Source: a virus
IMG/VR virus record: IMGVR_UViG_3300021197_001287
Coordinates: 1 to 22,154 of that record
DNA: 22,154 nucleotides
Direction: 5' to 3' (one strand)
A model generated the notes under the pieces. The model saw only the letters and a list, made by a program, of their open reading frames with translations. It had not been told where the DNA came from and did no database searches. This document shows positions 4,055 to 21,920 of the stretch, piece by piece. Position 1 is the first letter of the stretch. Every line of letters begins with the position of its first letter. The translations under genes were made by a program, and so were the position numbers.

Positions 4055-7000
4055 ATGCAAATCTCGGAAATCGAACTTCCTAGTGGGCAAATAATAGAAA
4101 TTGAGCATGATGACAATGCTACTCAAGAGCAACTATTTAACTTTGCTTCACAACACTTAAGGACTACGGATGACCGTGGTACCTTATTAGGTAACGCAGC
4201 TAAGACATTCTTGTCAGGCGGAATAGAAGCAGCTATTAACGTAGGTGCTGGTGGTGCTCAAATCACCGCAATGGGTATTGATATTCTTGATGGCGAGATG
4301 GACGGTATTAACCCGAATATGGGTGAATCAGTCCAGATAATGAGTGATGTTGCTCAACGCTGGAGAAAATTATCAATGGGTATTGATGAACGCATGGGCA
4401 TTGACCCTGAGTTCGCTAATAGCTTCGGTGGTCAGGTTCTCAATGGACTAGGTCAATTACCAGTTAATATTGCTGGAGGAATAGCTGGTGGATTAATTGG
4501 TACTGCTGTAGGTGGAATACCTGGTGGTGTTGCTGGTGGATTAATTGGCTCAGGTCTAGCGATTGCACCTCAGATGACTACTGAAGCCATCATGGATGCT
4601 GAACGTACATTAAATAAAAAGTACCTTGAGTTCTCAAATGAAGAGATGGATGATGCTGCGTTGTCAGCACTCGGTTATACTGCACTCGGCAGTGCATTGG
4701 AGTACGTTGGTTTACTTAAGTCAGTACCACAAGTAAAAAGATTCCTCCGTGGTCAATTAAAACTCCCCTCTGGAGAAATAAAGGAAATAACAAAGAGCCT
4801 CAAGCGTGAGATAGCTGAGGGTTTTGCTGCTGAGGGATTCACTGAGGCTGCTCAGGGACAGTTACTGGATAGTTTAGCTGCTGCAACCTACGATGACGAC
4901 AGACGTTTAATGTCGTACGATGTATTAGCTAACCGATTCAATGAGTTCCTTGTTGGTGGTGTAGTCGGTGGTACTGCTGCTGGTGCAACTGGATTATTTA
5001 CTAAACGTGAGCAAGACGTTAGTAATCAAAATACTAAACCTACTGGAGCTAACTCATTTGATGTTGTTGTTGTTGATGACGCAAGTGGAAGAGAATTTAT
5101 AATCCCTATCGAGGCAGCAGCCAATGAACAGGAGGCTATAAAAATAGCACAGGAAGGACTTGATGCTTACGAGACTAAGTCCCCTGACCTTACCTTTACT
5201 GTTACTGGTGCAACACCCTCACAGGGTCGTGTAGAGCAAGTAATAGAGGAACCAGAAGCCCAGCCCCAAGCACAGCCTGAAGCTACTGCACAGCCTGACT
5301 TAGAGGAGGAATCCCTACGCCAACAGGCAGAGATATTAGCAGGCGAACAAGCTACTGAACAAGACATACAATCAGTCATGTCCGAGTTACGCACTGAGGA
5401 ACAAGAGCGTCAAGCCCCAGCGACACCTACTGCACAGCCAGTTCCCGCAACCTCAGTGCCTGCACCTACTACAGCACAGCCTCAGCGTACTGGTACATTC
5501 CAGTTACCAAAGGGACTACGTGGTGCTAAGTCCAGATACAGGGATGCTACTGTTAATTTCTCTAGTGATTTTGAAAAAGCTGTTTACATAGCAGGCAAAG
5601 TAAAAGGTAAAAAGTCAGCACGATTTAATGACTACCTTGCTGAACTTGAGAACGCTGGGTACACCCCAAGGGAAATACAGGAACTCCGTAAGGAGATGAT
5701 GTCCGACCTTAATTATAAATACCAAAGAGGTGACAGGGATATTGATACTGTACGTCTAACTCAGAAGGATGTTGTAGCAGAACCACAAGTACCAACACAG
5801 AGAATACCTGTCGATATAACTGACCCTGACCTGATTGCATACATTGAATTTTTACAGCAAGAGGACCCACAAGGAGGGGATATAATAGCTGGTGCTAGTA
5901 CTCCTGCCGTTCCATTTACTAATGAGCAAGTACTAAGGGAAGCTAAGTTCGAGAAAAACGACCCAAGAATTATTGAAAAACTAGGCAATGAACCATTACC
6001 TAGAGGTGGCGTTCGTCTTAATCTTAACTCCGCATTTACTTTACCTAATGGTCAAAGGGGTATGCTACAGACTGTTCACCCAATCAGCAGTACAGGTAGG
6101 GTTAATTACGACAAAGCTCATAGTTATGGTTCAGCCTATATAATAAAAGATGGCAAGCTATCGGTAACTCCATTGGGTCGTGCTGTAATTGGGTACGGAT
6201 TAAATTCTAAGTTCCCTATGGCTAGTGTAGATGGCGATATTGTTGGTACTGAACCAAATCTAGAAGCTAACGAAATACTAACATTCAATCCATTCAGGAA
6301 CTCATCCTTTGTTGATAGCCGAGGCAGACCAGTAGAAAGCTTTAAGGGTGAGGGTACAGTCCACGGCTCTAAGGTTTATGTAAGAGGTACATTAAATTAC
6401 GCAAAACAGGAACCAGTTCGTTTTACCCAGAAGGATATGCTGGATTACCTGAGCGGTAAGACCGTAAAGGGAAAAAAATTATCGTTCTCAAAACTTGGAA
6501 TAACAGGAAAAAAATTCCCTACTGATTCTGACAAGGCTAAGGAAATCAGAAGAATGAAAAAAGTAGTCAGGGAAAAGGGAGAGCTCCCATTTGACTCAAT
6601 CCAAGAAGATATTGTAGCTGGTGCTAGTGAAGTATTTACCGCTCCGCAGAAGGCTGAGTTGTCTCACGTTACCCAGAATGACATTATTGATATTGATTCT
6701 TTGATTAATGAGATTGAAGAAAATAATATTCCTGTTTGGTTTTGGTACGCTGACCAATTAGGTGACGGAAAACTTCAACTTCCTAATAAAAAGAAACAAA
6801 GCATAACACTTGATGCGGGTCCTAGCTATGCACTTCAACCAGCCAATAGAGCTGCTGGTCGTGTATGGGCTTCCAGTAAATCAGCAAAAGAAATTAATAA
6901 TAAAATTTCACAGCTTGAATACACTGACAAGGACGGCAATAAAAAGACAGGTTATATATTTCTAGTTTCGGGAAGTCCGAATAATATGTTCTTGTTTAAC

Positions 7001-10000
7001 AAACAAGCGTTCATGGCTTTTTATAAAAATGCTTTTGGTAGTACGGCATTTAGTAAGGTAAAAGCAGAGATTCTTGCGAATAGTCCTACCAAACAAGTAC
7101 GAGATATTTTAAACAAATATACTTCTCTTAAAAAGTTACTGGATAGTGCTGATAGTCGTCCTTTTATTCAAGGACTTACTGACCAAAGGGGTAAGACAAG
7201 AAGTAAATTTACACAATACTTAGATAGTAAGGGTTTCTTTACTTTAGAAAACGAACAACTTCGTGACGGTTTTTATAGGGAGAATGACTTCAGGCTAAAT
7301 GATGTACTCTTAGTCGTTCAGCCCACTAAGGCTGATAATAAAACTGCTAATCACGGTACGTATACTACTCCTGTATACGGAAAAGTAATAGGAGTTCCTG
7401 ACAAAAGGAAAGATGCCTTCTTATTGTTGCCTGATGATGTAAGGAAAGATAAGTTAATTAGCATGGAGCCTGCAATGGCTGCTCAAGTTGTAGCTCCTTA
7501 TGGAGCTAGGGTCACAAGAATTAAAAAGATAATAGGGAGCGAAGAGGCTCAAAGGTCAGTTGATTATCTTACTGAAATTATTACCTCTGAGGATGCAAAG
7601 GATGGATTCACTATAACCACATCGGGAGATGCAGTAAATGAAGGTTATGTAGTTGCACCCAATAAAGAAACTGAAACGTACATAAATAGGGATGACTTCA
7701 ATGCGGAAACATTAACTCAATTTATAGTTAATAATGCTGAGTACCTTAATGTTAAGGGGGCAATGCTCGGTGGATGGTATAATAGCAAAATAGGTAAATA
7801 CGTATTGGATGTTGTCTTCGCTATTGACAAATTTGAAGATGCCGTTGAGATTGCAATATGGGGTGACCAAGATGCAATATTCCATTTAGATACATTAACA
7901 GAAATAGAAACAAAAGATGATACACAGAATAAAGCAGCGAAAACCCCAGCAGGGTACAACGGAACAGCAAGTGAAATCCTCAGCAGGAAACCGTCCATCA
8001 GTCTTGGTCGGTATTCCTCCGAAAGAAGGAGAGTCACCAGTGGACTTCGCCGAGCGGTTCCTCAAGCATTTGTCGGACCAACTGCAGGACCAGTAGAACG
8101 AGCGGATACCGAAGGTATAGAAGCTGGTGGTTTCCTTGGTGATTTCTTTGACGCAGGGCTGAATCCTCCTGTGGACAACAGCATGAGGACCCCTCAGGAG
8201 CAACGCATTGAACCTACCGATGACGTAAACCCCGAAGGGTACGCTAACGAGAGAGAGTTAGAGAAGGCTATATACGAGGAGTTCAACCCAATAGCGAAGT
8301 CACTTGGTCTTACTCCTATATTTGCTAATATAGTAATGACCTTGGGTGCTAGGTACAATGTCATACAAAACGAGATTGAGTTCAATCCACGTTTACTAAT
8401 AGGTCAAAGCAAGGAGTACGTACGTGCCGCTATGCGTGAAGAGATTATTCATGCTGTTACTCACGAGGTAATTAAAAAGCAAGGCGGTGGCTGGGTGCAG
8501 TTCTTCGGTCAAGTAGGCAGGGACATGAACCCCAAGGAACGCCGTGCCGTTTCGGATGTATACAGAAATTTAAAAGAGGACTACGAGTTCGGTGCTGAGT
8601 TCTATCGTATGATAATCCAGCAGGGTTCATACGGACAGATAACTGAGCAGTTCTCAAGAAATGGTCCAGCTATGAGTAAGATTCAAAAGTTACTCAAGAA
8701 GGTTCAGTCCTACATGGCTCGGTTACTCAAGACCATAGCAGGTGAGAAGTACCAAGCTGACGTTATGATTGCTCAGTCAGCGGCTTTACTTGCACAGGTT
8801 GACCCATCAGCTAGACCTACCAATCAAAAGGTCATAGAGGAGGCTACGGAGAGCATAGCGATACAGACAGGTCAGCGTGAGATTACCGCTGGGGTAGCCG
8901 CTGAAATCAATACACCTCCATCAAAGAAGAAGAAGAACAAGGAGAAACTCAGCTTCATGGATAAGTACGTGAATACTGTGTCACGTGTTCTTTCAAAGAT
9001 TAATCCACGAATTGCTCAGGCATTCCAGGGTTACTTCAATACTATTGAGGCTGAAAAGAATGATGCTATTAAGCGTGTACTTCCTTTTGTACAAAAATAC
9101 AATGCAATAAAAAGCAAGGCTGACAAGGACCGACTAAAGCAGTTACTCATGTATAGTCCTCTCAAGCAGGACGAGCAACCCAAGGCTGAGTTAATAGCTG
9201 AACGTGATGCATTACTTCGTAAGTACGATATGTACAATGATTTAATATTCGGGGTTCAACCAGTTCTTTCTCGCTTGCGTTCTAATGCTAGGGAGCAGGG
9301 CATTGATGTTGGATTCCTTGAGTCATTCTTCCCACGTAGGGTTATTGATTACAAGGGTCTAAAGGATTCACTAGGTGAAACCATAGCTGATGATATTAAC
9401 TTAGCTCTTGAGCAGCGTAACGCTGAGATTGAGACTGAGAACATCGCAATAATGGAGCGTAACTCAAAGCTTCAGCCAGGACAAAAAGGTGAGAACCTCA
9501 TACCCAAGATAGAAAAGAACTCCCCTGAGGAGGCGTTATTCATTGAGGACTACATCCGCAAGGCTGGAACCAGTGAGCAGTTCCTGAAGAACCGAGGAAT
9601 AAGTATTAAGATTCCAAGGGAGGAGCTGTCACGTAGATTTGAATTAATCCAAAAGGAACAGTTAGAATTTTATGATGATGTTCCATCAGCACTTGAAAGT
9701 TATATTACTAACATGATTGTTGCTACTCGTACTACCGAACTAATGGGTAGACGATACGAGGAACTCGATGTTACACTGGACCCGACATTTGAAAAGGTAC
9801 GTACTCCTGGTACGTTATCCCCATTAATATCTGAGTTACTGGAAAGTGGTGAGATAAATGCTGAGGACGTAAAGACAGTACGTAACATAGCACGTATGAT
9901 TCTTAACCCAGCGGCTAAAGAGAATCCACTTCTCAGTGGTATGCGACAAGGTAGTTACATTACTACGCTAGTTGAGTTCACATCTACATTATCACAACTG

Positions 10001-11011
10001 TTTGATATGCCATTCGTTATGTATCGAAATGGATTAATCAATACAGTACGTGGTCTAGGCATGACAAGGGACTTCAGTCTTGAGTCCTTCGGTTACGCAA
10101 AGGACCGAGTCTCCGATGAGTTCACTGATGAAAAGTCATTCCTGAATAGTGCGGCTAAGTTCGGACTGAAGGCAGTTGGCTTTACAAAGCTGGACCAGAT
10201 AATGAAGGAGAGCAATCTAGCCGCTAGTTATTTACAGCTAAGAAAACTTGCTCGTGGTTACTACAAGAACAGGGACTCCAAGGCATCCAAGAAATTTAGA
10301 CTTGAGATTGAACAGTACAATGGTGCTGAGAATGTTGACGCTACTATCGCCGCCTTGAAGAAGGGCGACAGGGACAATGCATTAGTACGTAATTTTGTGT
10401 TCGCTCAGTTGCTTAAGACTCAGCCAATGAGTAAGATGCAGAGTGTAGCCGCTCAGTCAGCTAACCCCAATGTACGTTTTGTTTATCAAATGAAATCATT
10501 TATGATTGCACAGCTTGCTTACACAAGGCAGGAGATATTCGATGACCTGTTCGGAAGTAATAGTACAACTAAACAAAGAGCAGTAGCTCTCTCTAATCTT
10601 ACTAAATTAATGGGCTTCATGTTGCTTGTTGGTTTACCTGTTGACGCACTCAAGGACTTCTTGGCTGGTCGACTTGGTTACTTAGATGATTATTTATTAA
10701 ATGGTATGGTACGTTCCTTCGGTATCAGTAAGTACCAGTTTTATCAAATCAAACGTGAAGGTCTAGGTCAGGCTGCATTGGATTTCATTACTCCTATTAC
10801 AGTCCAGCAGGGCGTGGACTACACCGCTGAGTTACAACGTGTAATGAGTGGTGACAAAGCCCTTACCGAAAGCAAGCTAGTAAGCATAGCTCCAGCCTCT
10901 GACGTTATCAATCGCCTGTTCGGATTTACTCGTGAGAAAGAAATGAAGGAGTACAGGAGACGACTCAAGGAAGGTGATGTACCATTCATCCGACCTCCTG
11001 GTTCTCTATAA
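4055..11011 (+). CDS. giant polyvalent internal virion (DNA ejection) protein
   Basis: 2318 residues. Order: an N-terminal segment with DNATQEQLFNFASQHL (about 20-35), a motif style common at the start of large phage virion proteins; Gly-zipper hydrophobic stretches at about 130-178 and 295-316 that could insert in a membrane; a Pro/Gln/Ala linker at about 395-485; a region with DAGPSYALQPANRAAGRVWA (about 925-945); a GGWYNSKIGKYVLDVVFAID module near 1236-1255, resembling a GGW..LDV domain of polyvalent phage proteins; a zincin-like EEIIHAVTHE at 1462-1471; then a long helical C-terminus with KSFMIAQLAYTRQEI near 2148. The C-terminal pattern matches, from memory, large polyvalent or ejection proteins. 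It probably enters the cell with the DNA. Last gene of the plus block. Confidence 0.75.
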   Translation: MQISEIELPSGQIIEIEHDDNATQEQLFNFASQHLRTTDDRGTLLGNAAKTFLSGGIEAAINVGAGGAQITAMGIDILDGEMDGINPNMGESVQIMSDVAQRWRKLSMGIDERMGIDPEFANSFGGQVLNGLGQLPVNIAGGIAGGLIGTAVGGIPGGVAGGLIGSGLAIAPQMTTEAIMDAERTLNKKYLEFSNEEMDDAALSALGYTALGSALEYVGLLKSVPQVKRFLRGQLKLPSGEIKEITKSLKREIAEGFAAEGFTEAAQGQLLDSLAAATYDDDRRLMSYDVLANRFNEFLVGGVVGGTAAGATGLFTKREQDVSNQNTKPTGANSFDVVVVDDASGREFIIPIEAAANEQEAIKIAQEGLDAYETKSPDLTFTVTGATPSQGRVEQVIEEPEAQPQAQPEATAQPDLEEESLRQQAEILAGEQATEQDIQSVMSELRTEEQERQAPATPTAQPVPATSVPAPTTAQPQRTGTFQLPKGLRGAKSRYRDATVNFSSDFEKAVYIAGKVKGKKSARFNDYLAELENAGYTPREIQELRKEMMSDLNYKYQRGDRDIDTVRLTQKDVVAEPQVPTQRIPVDITDPDLIAYIEFLQQEDPQGGDIIAGASTPAVPFTNEQVLREAKFEKNDPRIIEKLGNEPLPRGGVRLNLNSAFTLPNGQRGMLQTVHPISSTGRVNYDKAHSYGSAYIIKDGKLSVTPLGRAVIGYGLNSKFPMASVDGDIVGTEPNLEANEILTFNPFRNSSFVDSRGRPVESFKGEGTVHGSKVYVRGTLNYAKQEPVRFTQKDMLDYLSGKTVKGKKLSFSKLGITGKKFPTDSDKAKEIRRMKKVVREKGELPFDSIQEDIVAGASEVFTAPQKAELSHVTQNDIIDIDSLINEIEENNIPVWFWYADQLGDGKLQLPNKKKQSITLDAGPSYALQPANRAAGRVWASSKSAKEINNKISQLEYTDKDGNKKTGYIFLVSGSPNNMFLFNKQAFMAFYKNAFGSTAFSKVKAEILANSPTKQVRDILNKYTSLKKLLDSADSRPFIQGLTDQRGKTRSKFTQYLDSKGFFTLENEQLRDGFYRENDFRLNDVLLVVQPTKADNKTANHGTYTTPVYGKVIGVPDKRKDAFLLLPDDVRKDKLISMEPAMAAQVVAPYGARVTRIKKIIGSEEAQRSVDYLTEIITSEDAKDGFTITTSGDAVNEGYVVAPNKETETYINRDDFNAETLTQFIVNNAEYLNVKGAMLGGWYNSKIGKYVLDVVFAIDKFEDAVEIAIWGDQDAIFHLDTLTEIETKDDTQNKAAKTPAGYNGTASEILSRKPSISLGRYSSERRRVTSGLRRAVPQAFVGPTAGPVERADTEGIEAGGFLGDFFDAGLNPPVDNSMRTPQEQRIEPTDDVNPEGYANERELEKAIYEEFNPIAKSLGLTPIFANIVMTLGARYNVIQNEIEFNPRLLIGQSKEYVRAAMREEIIHAVTHEVIKKQGGGWVQFFGQVGRDMNPKERRAVSDVYRNLKEDYEFGAEFYRMIIQQGSYGQITEQFSRNGPAMSKIQKLLKKVQSYMARLLKTIAGEKYQADVMIAQSAALLAQVDPSARPTNQKVIEEATESIAIQTGQREITAGVAAEINTPPSKKKKNKEKLSFMDKYVNTVSRVLSKINPRIAQAFQGYFNTIEAEKNDAIKRVLPFVQKYNAIKSKADKDRLKQLLMYSPLKQDEQPKAELIAERDALLRKYDMYNDLIFGVQPVLSRLRSNAREQGIDVGFLESFFPRRVIDYKGLKDSLGETIADDINLALEQRNAEIETENIAIMERNSKLQPGQKGENLIPKIEKNSPEEALFIEDYIRKAGTSEQFLKNRGISIKIPREELSRRFELIQKEQLEFYDDVPSALESYITNMIVATRTTELMGRRYEELDVTLDPTFEKVRTPGTLSPLISELLESGEINAEDVKTVRNIARMILNPAAKENPLLSGMRQGSYITTLVEFTSTLSQLFDMPFVMYRNGLINTVRGLGMTRDFSLESFGYAKDRVSDEFTDEKSFLNSAAKFGLKAVGFTKLDQIMKESNLAASYLQLRKLARGYYKNRDSKASKKFRLEIEQYNGAENVDATIAALKKGDRDNALVRNFVFAQLLKTQPMSKMQSVAAQSANPNVRFVYQMKSFMIAQLAYTRQEIFDDLFGSNSTTKQRAVALSNLTKLMGFMLLVGLPVDALKDFLAGRLGYLDDYLLNGMVRSFGISKYQFYQIKREGLGQAALDFITPITVQQGVDYTAELQRVMSGDKALTESKLVSIAPASDVINRLFGFTREKEMKEYRRRLKEGDVPFIRPPGSL

Positions 11012-20242: not shown

Positions 20243-20521
20243 TTATTTGTTGTTGCGTAAGTTGCTGATGAGAAGAATTACTGGGATGAAACCCAGCCCG
20301 ATGATGCATCCGACTGCTGTGCCGTTTGCCATGCTGAGGTTGCCTGCTACGAAGCCTCCAAGCCAGTCACTAGTGGCATTGCCTAGCCCTGCCCCGATGA
20401 CAGCTCCTAGCCCCTTCTGAAGGGACTTAGGAAGGTATCTCTCGACCTCGTAGCCTGTCATTGCACCGATAATCATTACTAGATTGTCGATGATTCCGAA
20501 TGTTATGTATTCAAATGTCAT
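20243..20521 (-). CDS. holin-like membrane protein
   Basis: 92 residues. Hydrophobic helices at about 5-22, 36-62 (Gly-rich, GLGAVIGAGLGNATSDWLGG) and 66-87 (GTAVGCIIGLGFIPVILLIS) suggest two or three membrane passes, with a short basic tail RNNK. The stretch TGYEVERYLPKSLQKGLGAV recurs, from memory, in small membrane proteins of aquatic phages, often labelled holin or unknown. An SleB-type hydrolase lies 2.8 kb downstream on the same strand, so a lysis role is reasonable but not proved. The gene follows a terminator plus a hairpin and the TATTATTATG leader. Confidence 0.7.
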   Translation of the reverse strand: MTFEYITFGIIDNLVMIIGAMTGYEVERYLPKSLQKGLGAVIGAGLGNATSDWLGGFVAGNLSMANGTAVGCIIGLGFIPVILLISNLRNNK

Positions 20522-20545
20522 AATAATAGTTGTTGATTGTTGTTT

Positions 20546-20600
20546 GATGCGACCTGCATCTACCCAAAAAGCCCCAGCCTTGTAGGGCTGGAGCTGTGGT
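20546..20600 (-). terminator. terminator followed by a small hairpin
   Basis: On the minus strand AGCTCCAGCC (20586-20595) pairs with GGCTGGGGCT (20570-20579), ten pairs with one G-U, loop CTACAA, then TTTTTGGGTAGA. It is followed at once by GATGC-AGGTC-GCATC (20546-20560), a five-base-pair hairpin. The next gene starts 25 bases further on. Confidence 0.8.
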
Positions 20601-20855
20601 CTATTTGAGTATGTCCTCTAATGGGATTAAGTCAGCTATAAAACCTATATTAAAGGTCTGAAGGAATACGTTGAAATGATGTACCTCAATGTCCGTTACA
20701 TCCTCCGCTAGCTGAACCTCTTTGTCCCAGTCAAGCCATATTACACTTGAGTAATTGCGGATGATTTTCTCATAAAGAGGAAAGTTGATTCTCTCAAATG
20801 ATTTGAGAGTTTCACGAATGAATCTGAGTTGCTTTTCTTTTGGTGCTATTTTCAT
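20601..20855 (-). CDS. hypothetical helical protein
   Basis: 84 residues, MKIAPKEKQLRFIRETLKSF at the start, basic N-terminal helix, then aromatic IWLDWDKEVQ and a hydrophobic C-terminus FLQTFNIGFIADLIPLEDIL. Not strongly hydrophobic enough for a clear membrane helix. Family not recognised. It is a single-gene unit: an intrinsic terminator follows its stop, and a second terminator plus hairpin precede it. Confidence 0.65.
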   Translation of the reverse strand: MKIAPKEKQLRFIRETLKSFERINFPLYEKIIRNYSSVIWLDWDKEVQLAEDVTDIEVHHFNVFLQTFNIGFIADLIPLEDILK

Positions 20856-20880
20856 AATAATAATAGTTGATTGTTGATTG

Positions 20881-20930
20881 GAAGCGGAATGCTTCTACCC
20901 AAAAAGCCCGCACCTGTGAAGTGCGAGCTG
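20881..20930 (-). terminator. terminator followed by a small hairpin
   Basis: On the minus strand AGCTCGCAC (20921-20929) pairs with GTGCGGGCT (20905-20913), nine pairs with one G-U at the same place as in the 20570 terminator. TTTTTGGGTAGA follows, then GAAGC-ATTCC-GCTTC (20881-20895). The hairpin stem differs from the 20546 one by a compensatory pair. ATG 20855 is 25 bases away. Confidence 0.8.
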
Positions 20931-20934
20931 TTGG

Positions 20935-21201
20935 TTAAAGGATTGATGCGATTTCCTCCGCCTCCTTAAATTTACGGCGAACCTGTGATTCAAGCTTCGA
21001 CCATTCCTTTAAGAACCCCTCTACGTTTTCCATGTCCGCCCATCCATGATTTTTCATGTAATCTACCTGTGCATTAATCATGCAGGTGGATGTTGCTTCA
21101 TCAGCACTTACACGACCGAATGTGACCATGTCCTCAAATGTATAGCCATCAAAGATGGATGGTGTATTTAAGATTGATTTAACTGTAGGTAATTTATCCA
21201 T
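20935..21201 (-). CDS. hypothetical protein, first gene of the minus-strand block
   Basis: 88 residues, MDKLPTVKSILNTPSIFDGY onward, helical with a charged C-terminus EWSKLESQVRRKFKEAEEIA. No recognised domain. It is the first credible minus-strand gene after the 0.9-kb control region, so it may be among the earliest expressed genes, a position where phages often place host-takeover proteins. Its leader (CAACAACAACTATTATTATG) is shared with the next two genes, and a terminator follows its stop directly. Confidence 0.65.
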   Translation of the reverse strand: MDKLPTVKSILNTPSIFDGYTFEDMVTFGRVSADEATSTCMINAQVDYMKNHGWADMENVEGFLKEWSKLESQVRRKFKEAEEIASIL

Positions 21202-21640
21202 AATAATAGTTGTTGTTGATTGCTCTCAGCGTTTATGCGGACTTGAGACCGCCACCCCATGTGGTCGCTTTACAATCTTATGTCCCCCTTGATACGTCAT
21301 CGAAGTCTCCTATCGGAATCCTGCGTTACCACTTCCTGTTCTTATGGTGCGTATTAATTAGCACGGCATCGCCACTTGGAGTGTTACCCCAAGGTCGGTA
21401 TCGGGTTGGACTGAGAAAGAACACCTGCTGTTTGGGTCGGTCGCATATACTCTGAAGTGCAATTGAATGAGCTTCTCCGCACCGAAGTGCTACCAGAGTA
21501 GGGAATCGATTTTCGACTGATGTCAGCTAGGAAAGAACATACAGTAATTAAACTGTAATACCGATAATGCATACATATTTGATTCAATCGAGCAAAAAAT
21601 GACCCACATTCAAAACTAGTGATTTTCCGATAGAAAAACA
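21202..21640. other. non-coding region with hairpins
   Basis: No credible gene. Local stems: GCGG/CCGC (21237-21252), CCAC/GTGG (21252-21264), GTGC/GCAC (21347-21364), a CTTGG/CCAAG stem near 21375-21393, GCAC-CGAA-GTGC (21479-21490, a C(UUCG)G tetraloop on the minus strand), CTGA-TG-TCAG near 21516-21526 and TACAGT/ACTGTA (21540-21557). It may be a structured leader or non-coding RNA of the minus block. No tRNA could be folded. Confidence 0.45.
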
Positions 21641-21754: not shown

Positions 21755-21920
21755 GTTGCATTAAATTGCATAGCCCGTAGTGAGCCATAAATGCCCCTAG
21801 AAGGCGTCTTTGATTCGAGGCGACCTCTCCCCCTCGCAAATCATCCAAGGAGCATACAGCCAATTTCGCCATTTTTAGTTGCATTAAATTGCATAGCAAG
21901 TTGCATTAAAATTGCATAGC
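21755..21920. repeat. three GTTGCATTAAATTGCATAGC iterons
   Basis: A 20-mer occurs exactly at 21755-21774 and 21878-21897 and with one inserted A at 21900-21920. The last two are 22 bases apart, about two helical turns. Each contains two TTGCAT cores around TTAAA. Such iterons fit an initiator, repressor or terminase binding site. Confidence 0.85.
21811..21843. other. hairpin between iterons
   Basis: TGAT-T-CGAGG (21811-21820) can pair with CCTCG-CAA-ATCA (21832-21843): five plus four base pairs around an internal loop, with an 11-base pyrimidine-rich loop. It lies between the first and second iteron. Function unknown. Confidence 0.4.

Follow-up and report, generated by a model that had tools for sequence, protein, structure and literature searches.

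What purpose is served by two structured gene boundaries of the same design that follow one another at the start of a block of small phage genes? The window, by which we mean the entire IMG/VR virus record of 22,154 bases, contains two such units on the minus strand, where they separate three small ORFs (20935-21201, 20601-20855 and 20243-20521) at the point at which the minus-strand gene block begins. A reading made from the sequence alone (the sequence-only reading) had described two cassettes here, each with a terminator stem, a small hairpin and a leader, and both are indeed present. The features of this region are as follows.

21280-21417, minus strand: RAGATH-24 RNA (Rfam RF03049), the structured RNA that comes first in the early transcript (cmscan)
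21219-21276, minus strand: predicted type-P1 twister ribozyme (Rfam RF03160), before the first gene (cmscan)
20935-21201, minus strand: first small early gene, 88 aa, MDKLPTVKS... (ORF list and clustering)
20905-20929, minus strand: terminator-like stem-loop 1 (AGCTCGCAC/GTGCGGGCT), stem AGCTCGCACTTCACAGGTGCGGGCT at 20929-20905 (scan and folding)
20897-20905, minus strand: conserved linker UUUUUGGGU, copy 1 (sequence match)
20881-20895, minus strand: 5' hairpin GAAGC-ATTCC-GCTTC, copy 1 (covariation and folding)
20856-20880, minus strand: leader, G-poor, no Shine-Dalgarno, copy 1 (sequence)
20601-20855, minus strand: second small early gene, 84 aa, start at 20855 (ORF list)
20570-20595, minus strand: terminator-like stem-loop 2 (AGCTCCAGCC/GGCTGGGGCT), stem AGCTCCAGCCCTACAAGGCTGGGGCT at 20595-20570 (scan and folding)
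20562-20570, minus strand: conserved linker UUUUUGGGU, copy 2 (sequence match)
20546-20560, minus strand: 5' hairpin GATGC-AGGTC-GCATC, copy 2 (covariation and folding)
20522-20545, minus strand: leader, G-poor, copy 2 (sequence)
20243-20521, minus strand: third small early gene, 92 aa, MTFEYITFG..., start at 20521 (ORF list and clustering)

The terminator-like stems are 10-11 bp long, GC-rich and followed by a U-run, and both are detected by the terminator scan. The G-U that the sequence-only reading placed in each of them is a U-G, the fourth pair of both stems. Directly after each stem comes TTTTTGGGTAGA (20905-20894 and 20570-20559, minus strand), and each small hairpin, with a 5 bp stem and a 5 nt loop, is followed by a leader of the form CAATCAAC...ATTATTATG and then the ORF start. 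Between the two hairpins the third stem position is swapped from A-T to T-A, just as had been claimed. Compared with shuffled sequence, the whole units fold with z = -4.7 and -5.4, and the 5' hairpin plus leader with z = -4.4 and -7.5. Only two exact copies of the unit occur within the window.

Beyond the window, IMG/VR scans and fetched relatives yield about 170 distinct copies, nearly all of them from one family of 35 kb phages with an SU10-type capsid, so the sequence-only reading, which had proposed a search for more copies, underestimated how general the element is. For instance, the pattern TTTTTGGGTAGANGC.....GCNTC matched 21 virus contigs in IMG/VR, 20 of which have a terminator, a hairpin and a complementary N-N pair, with A-T, T-A, G-C and C-G all seen at the free stem position; the same terminator, hairpin and SD-less leader recur in 19 of those 20. 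The remaining match, L012, lacks the pairing, and L004, which has high GC, shows a terminator and a hairpin but an SD leader and may be a chance match. A scan with GGGCTTTTTGGGTAGA, which makes no demand for a hairpin, returns 56 contigs, and a hairpin is found in nearly all of those belonging to this phage family. The commonest form is CTTTTTGGGTGTAAGC-ANNNN-GCTTAC; CTTTTTGGGTGTAAGC matched 100 contigs, part of them by chance in coding sequence, versus 7 for the control CTTTTTCCCTGTAAGC, in which GGG is replaced by CCC. The window finding is not a chance one. There are 197 distinct candidates with an upstream stem, and in 170 of them at least four Watson-Crick pairs form right after GGGU. Of the 197, 147 have TTTTTGGGT and 37 have TTTCTGGGT; besides the commonest form there is one with the U-run UUUCU.

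Six pattern matches in GTDB genomes lack the combination of terminator, hairpin and leader and were therefore counted as chance, and blastn of the consensus cassette against named phages returned chance-level fragments only. The nearest named relative, Phage C75C1 (OQ984151.1, our L031; TerL 71.6%, DnaB 43.5%), does not contain TTGGGTAGA, and Thalassomonas phage BA3, which combines a terminator with TTTTTGGGTG, shows no clear hairpin. We found no cultured member of the family that carries the element, and a TerL search of three bacterial genomes, made with a host in mind, gave no match. The element is absent from Rfam, in which no family matched the small hairpin, and the papers searched in an open library yielded no description of it or of RAGATH-24; a 2017 paper in NAR reportedly describes motifs of this kind. 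The element is a strong marker for an uncultured, water-borne phage group.

Across these copies the order is fixed: a GC hairpin, UUU(U/C)UGGGU, a hairpin of 5-6 bp, a G-poor leader of about 26 nt without Shine-Dalgarno sequence, and ATG. U-runs were counted as 4-5 T in 8 nt or as UUUCU, and only UUUUU or UUUCU stands before GGG. Stop codons mostly lie 5-8 nt ahead of the first stem. The layout is one of single-gene cassettes, and in all 40 contigs with at least two cassettes the cassettes share one strand. The leader, with a median length of 26 nt, contains 4.3% G, and a Shine-Dalgarno sequence occurs in 0 of 132.

It is structure, rather than sequence, that is conserved, as the sequence-only reading had held from two copies. 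Among 72 distinct hairpins of fixed length, the pair formed by columns 13 and 23 is A-U in 47, C-G in 15, G-C in 5 and U-A in 5, and is never broken; columns 15 and 21 are C-G in 56 and G-C in 12, and columns 11 and 25 hold G-C, U-A, U-G, A-U or C-G in 61. The covariation score is 0.437; shuffled letters score 0.107 (sd 0.016), and slid partners do not exceed 0.144. These values are partly biased, since a portion of the stem was prescribed in some of the search patterns (columns 13-23 were free in two patterns). A less biased set is given by the UUUCU copies gathered before any UUUCU search, where 34 of 37 have the hairpin. A Watson-Crick stem of at least 5 right after GGGU is found in 112 of 156 candidates, versus about 4.7 in shuffles. 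Other stems, longer or quite different, can stand in the same place (GTAACCC/GGGTTGC, GCCGG/CCGGC). That reading would have been given up had there been no copies elsewhere and no covariation; both were found. The two main hairpin types almost never occur without the upstream hairpin, the U-run and a GGGU-like linker, so that the parts of the element are coupled. The ratio of G-U to A-C, 114 vs 33 in the terminator stems, is 24 vs 38 in the small hairpin (loop-closing position included), a count that does not prove action as RNA. In folded read-through RNA, GGGU pairs fully with an upstream ACC/UCC in 59 of 147 cases and not at all in 33, which is too poorly conserved for a claim.

The first gene of the window has a different leader. 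In the slot where genes 2 and 3 have their hairpin lies a predicted twister ribozyme (51.7 bits, E=5.8e-10; gathering cutoff 67.2, not reached), preceded by a RAGATH-24 RNA (40.3 bits, E=2.7e-6; below the gathering cutoff of 45.3), the Rfam covariance-model search having been run in E-value mode. At the same place in relatives RAGATH-24 scores above gathering (66.1 bits in L008, 64.5 bits in L078), and in L078 it is paired with a twister of 53.5 bits. The twister core is kept in 24 fetched loci and the window, with the RAGATH-24 region ahead of it in the alignment. The type-P1 twister cleaves itself at a conserved U-A step, and we know of no clear job for twister ribozymes in most bacteria and phages. 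As an observation of its own, the pair of twister and RAGATH-24 (window 21210-21417, minus strand) heads the early operon across the phage family.

Protein clustering shows that twister and hairpin are alternatives for one slot, since in each of five ORF families the gene follows a twister in some genomes and a hairpin in others. To illustrate, the MDKLPTVKS gene is twister-led in the window and in L003 (the complete genome G001) and hairpin-led in L010 and L011. Hairpins, too, replace one another: the MTIEYITFG gene is found behind GATGC, GAAGC and GTAAGC stems, and orthologues of the third small gene elsewhere have GAAGC- or GTAAGC-type hairpins in front. The ribozymes thus share with the small hairpin the same 5' slot, the same gene cassettes and the same phages, and differ from it in that the hairpin has no Rfam family of its own. 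That a ribozyme can take the slot suggests a role for the element in marking where each message starts or in protecting that start, and the interchange of a ribozyme with a tiny hairpin before the same genes makes it a testable proposal that ribozymes form message 5' ends.

Where does transcription of the series begin? Sigma-70-like matches are fewer in the gaps than in shuffled sequence (mean 5.1 vs 6.3 of 12). A conserved block lies upstream of RAGATH-24, which in L091 includes TTGACC-17-TAATAT, plausibly a host promoter; other members have weak boxes. A perfect 20-nt direct repeat, GTTGCATTAAATTGCATAGC, occurs in non-coding sequence upstream of RAGATH-24 (window 21755-21774 and 21878-21897); it could be a regulator or replication-origin site.

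The sequence-only reading had looked instead to the small hairpins for promoters that restart transcription after each terminator, in the manner of the N4 virion RNA polymerase, which initiates at extruded DNA hairpins. N4 promoters have a 5-7-bp stem, a 3-nt loop and a purine at the loop centre of the template strand (PMC4496689). Like them (PMC4496689), the present hairpins are small, lie near early genes and keep their structure while some stem positions are free; many reach about 6 bp with a 3-nt loop if an A-U closing pair is counted, the rest, both window copies among them, having 5 bp and 5 nt, and the preceding terminators would make a restart useful. Unlike them, they always lie behind a terminator-like hairpin, bound to it and its linker, they are missing from the first gene, which has the twister instead, and the template loop centre is T or C rather than a conserved purine (loops ATACT, the commonest, which gives T, AGGTC, which gives C, ACACT, ATGTC and ACACG). 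Nor was a polymerase recognised. The complete relative G001 (35,320 b, with about 157 nt common to its two ends) encodes DnaB, Erf, an exonuclease, endonuclease VII, an endolysin, TerL and the SU10-type capsid, and among the 18 Pfam and 25 of 41 PHROG families listed for its 47 proteins there is no RNA polymerase, sigma factor or integrase. A giant protein of about 2,300 residues likewise matched no solved structure in the PDB, no polymerase family and no catalytic motif set. With no polymerase recognised by sequence and no sigma-70-like promoter in the gaps, the N4 reading is unsupported, and we regard it as very improbable. In the window the giant protein (4055-11011, plus strand; 2,318 aa) is a virion-side protein with no family match above cut-off, and its conserved part includes an HExxH-like stretch, EEIIHAVTHE.

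The shuffling of genes and leaders raises a further explanation, that the linker is a DNA-level site at which single-gene cassettes are swapped, either by homologous recombination with the Erf-like annealase of the phage or because the linker folds into an attC-like site. The same genes do occur at varied positions and behind varied hairpins, a few terminator alleles turn up behind more than one gene, and the phage encodes Erf. An attC-like site calls for a cognate tyrosine integrase, and none is among the families reported for G001; moreover, the compensatory stem changes lower homology rather than keep it, the spacing of terminator, leader and start codon is near-fixed, and a twister can replace the hairpin. 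We consider such a site improbable.

The serial terminator-like hairpins, with no promoters between them, imply a need for read-through, which could be met if each nascent hairpin, and RAGATH-24 at the operon head, so altered the elongating polymerase that the following terminator no longer stopped it. HK022 put is an antitermination RNA of this kind. The likeness lies in a leader RNA that heads an operon interrupted by terminators, RAGATH-24 being at the head of the transcript, and the spacing from U-run to hairpin is constant; unlike put, the hairpins here are much smaller and are repeated per gene. Loops and stems vary freely, which leaves little but GGGU for recognition, and a twister in the hairpin slot would not stay with the polymerase but cleave the RNA. 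Antitermination or pausing appears unlikely to us.

A second phage group bears on the role of the leader. This group has an epsilon15-like TerL (at most 49% identical to those of database phages), a GC of 0.34-0.40 and SD leaders, and comprises 12 loci (L042, L046, L049, L051, L062, L065, L068, L100, L113, L121, L165 and L168). They carry the same terminator and linker, as TTTTTGGGT/UUUUUGGGU, in the form CAAGCCCGCTT(T)ATGTGGGCTTTTTGGGTGTAAGC-AATAAC-GCTTAC or relatives. A single protein of 81 aa is common to the two groups, L068 adds a match over a short fragment, and beyond this no proteins are shared; the unit was either exchanged between them or arose twice. The hairpin (TGTAAGC/GCTTACA) is found in part of these copies only, so GGGU may serve a purpose of its own. 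Were the element purely translational, a 5'-UTR hairpin that frees the G-poor leader or a standby site for SD-less initiation irrespective of RNA ends, its position a median of 26 nt ahead of ATG and the lack of an SD in the leader would be accounted for. The second group nevertheless combines the element with an SD leader, and it would be left unexplained why the small hairpin is so rigidly linked to the terminator-like one and to GGGU. We give this explanation, too, a rather small chance.

To our minds the best explanation, offered tentatively as little short of an even chance, is that the element is intercistronic RNA punctuation, in which a leaky terminator, or else a processing site, and a hairpin at the 5' end would together delimit single-gene mRNAs. 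RNA processing and protection of a new 5' end had been named by the sequence-only reading as alternatives to its promoter; they fit better than the promoter does, and are put forward here on the pattern of sequence and structure. Since the gaps have no promoter and the U-runs are short or interrupted, one upstream promoter with partial termination is the simplest account. Host RNA polymerase would transcribe the whole series from a single promoter upstream of RAGATH-24, and the short U-runs would halt only part of that transcription. Read-through RNA would be cut in or next to UUUYUGGGU, or would continue and be translated; if a nuclease acts, the conserved GGGU is the obvious candidate for its recognition site. 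After such a cut the upstream message would finish in a 3' hairpin, and the downstream one would carry a 5' hairpin near its end. The twister would form the 5' end of the gene 1 message by its own cleavage, and by partial termination or cutting each message would therefore end in a 3' hairpin and begin with a 5' one, that of gene 1 beginning with the twister product instead. The outcome would be protected, separately dosed mRNAs. From leakiness to cutting and end protection, these steps are what we infer from the layout.

Processing of the T7 early region by RNase III yields single-gene mRNAs. As in T7, the early-gene boundaries here are structured and would leave hairpins at new message ends; unlike in T7, the hairpins have 5-6 bp, whereas a classical RNase III site would need a far longer stem, each of them has a terminator-like stem ahead of it, and a ribozyme can replace them. 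In the post-transcriptional control of T4, RegB cleaves within GGAG/U between early genes, and a cut by RNase E lies upstream of gene 32 (PMC3014915). The G-rich motif of the present early intergenic regions is likewise a conceivable cut site, and processed 5' ends upstream of a gene, a feature of T4, are conceivable here also; unlike in T4, GGGU is directly flanked by a hairpin on each side, and it is no Shine-Dalgarno sequence. No RegB-like protein was recognised in G001. A stronger proposition is that the two-hairpin unit is a module for RNA cleavage or end formation that has not been described before, does the work of a self-cleaving ribozyme, and is used gene by gene in an aquatic phage lineage and partly in the unrelated epsilon15-like group; this is putative and in our estimation unlikely. 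With more than 80 distinct stem-loop variants, the element is in any case a natural library for studies of mRNA punctuation.

Two minor observations concern the leaders and boundaries of the same phages. After some GTAACCC- or GCAAGC-type hairpins the leader holds repeats of ATACAGGCGC or TGTGCCGTGC ahead of ATG (L126 at 1024, minus strand; L149 at 337, minus; L055 at 9483, minus; L011 at 7650, plus), which are perhaps regulator sites. A related boundary, TTTTTTGGTAGACAAGGCTA..., has two larger hairpins in place of the small one, the second being CTGCGC/GCGCAG after AAACGAGA. It has no Rfam match and occurs in L078 (5411, minus strand), L081 (4523, plus), L084 (16745, minus) and 37 contigs of one scan, mostly before a few recurring ORF families (MYSESARSAL, MDIEEYLKT), and is possibly another structured leader or ribozyme.
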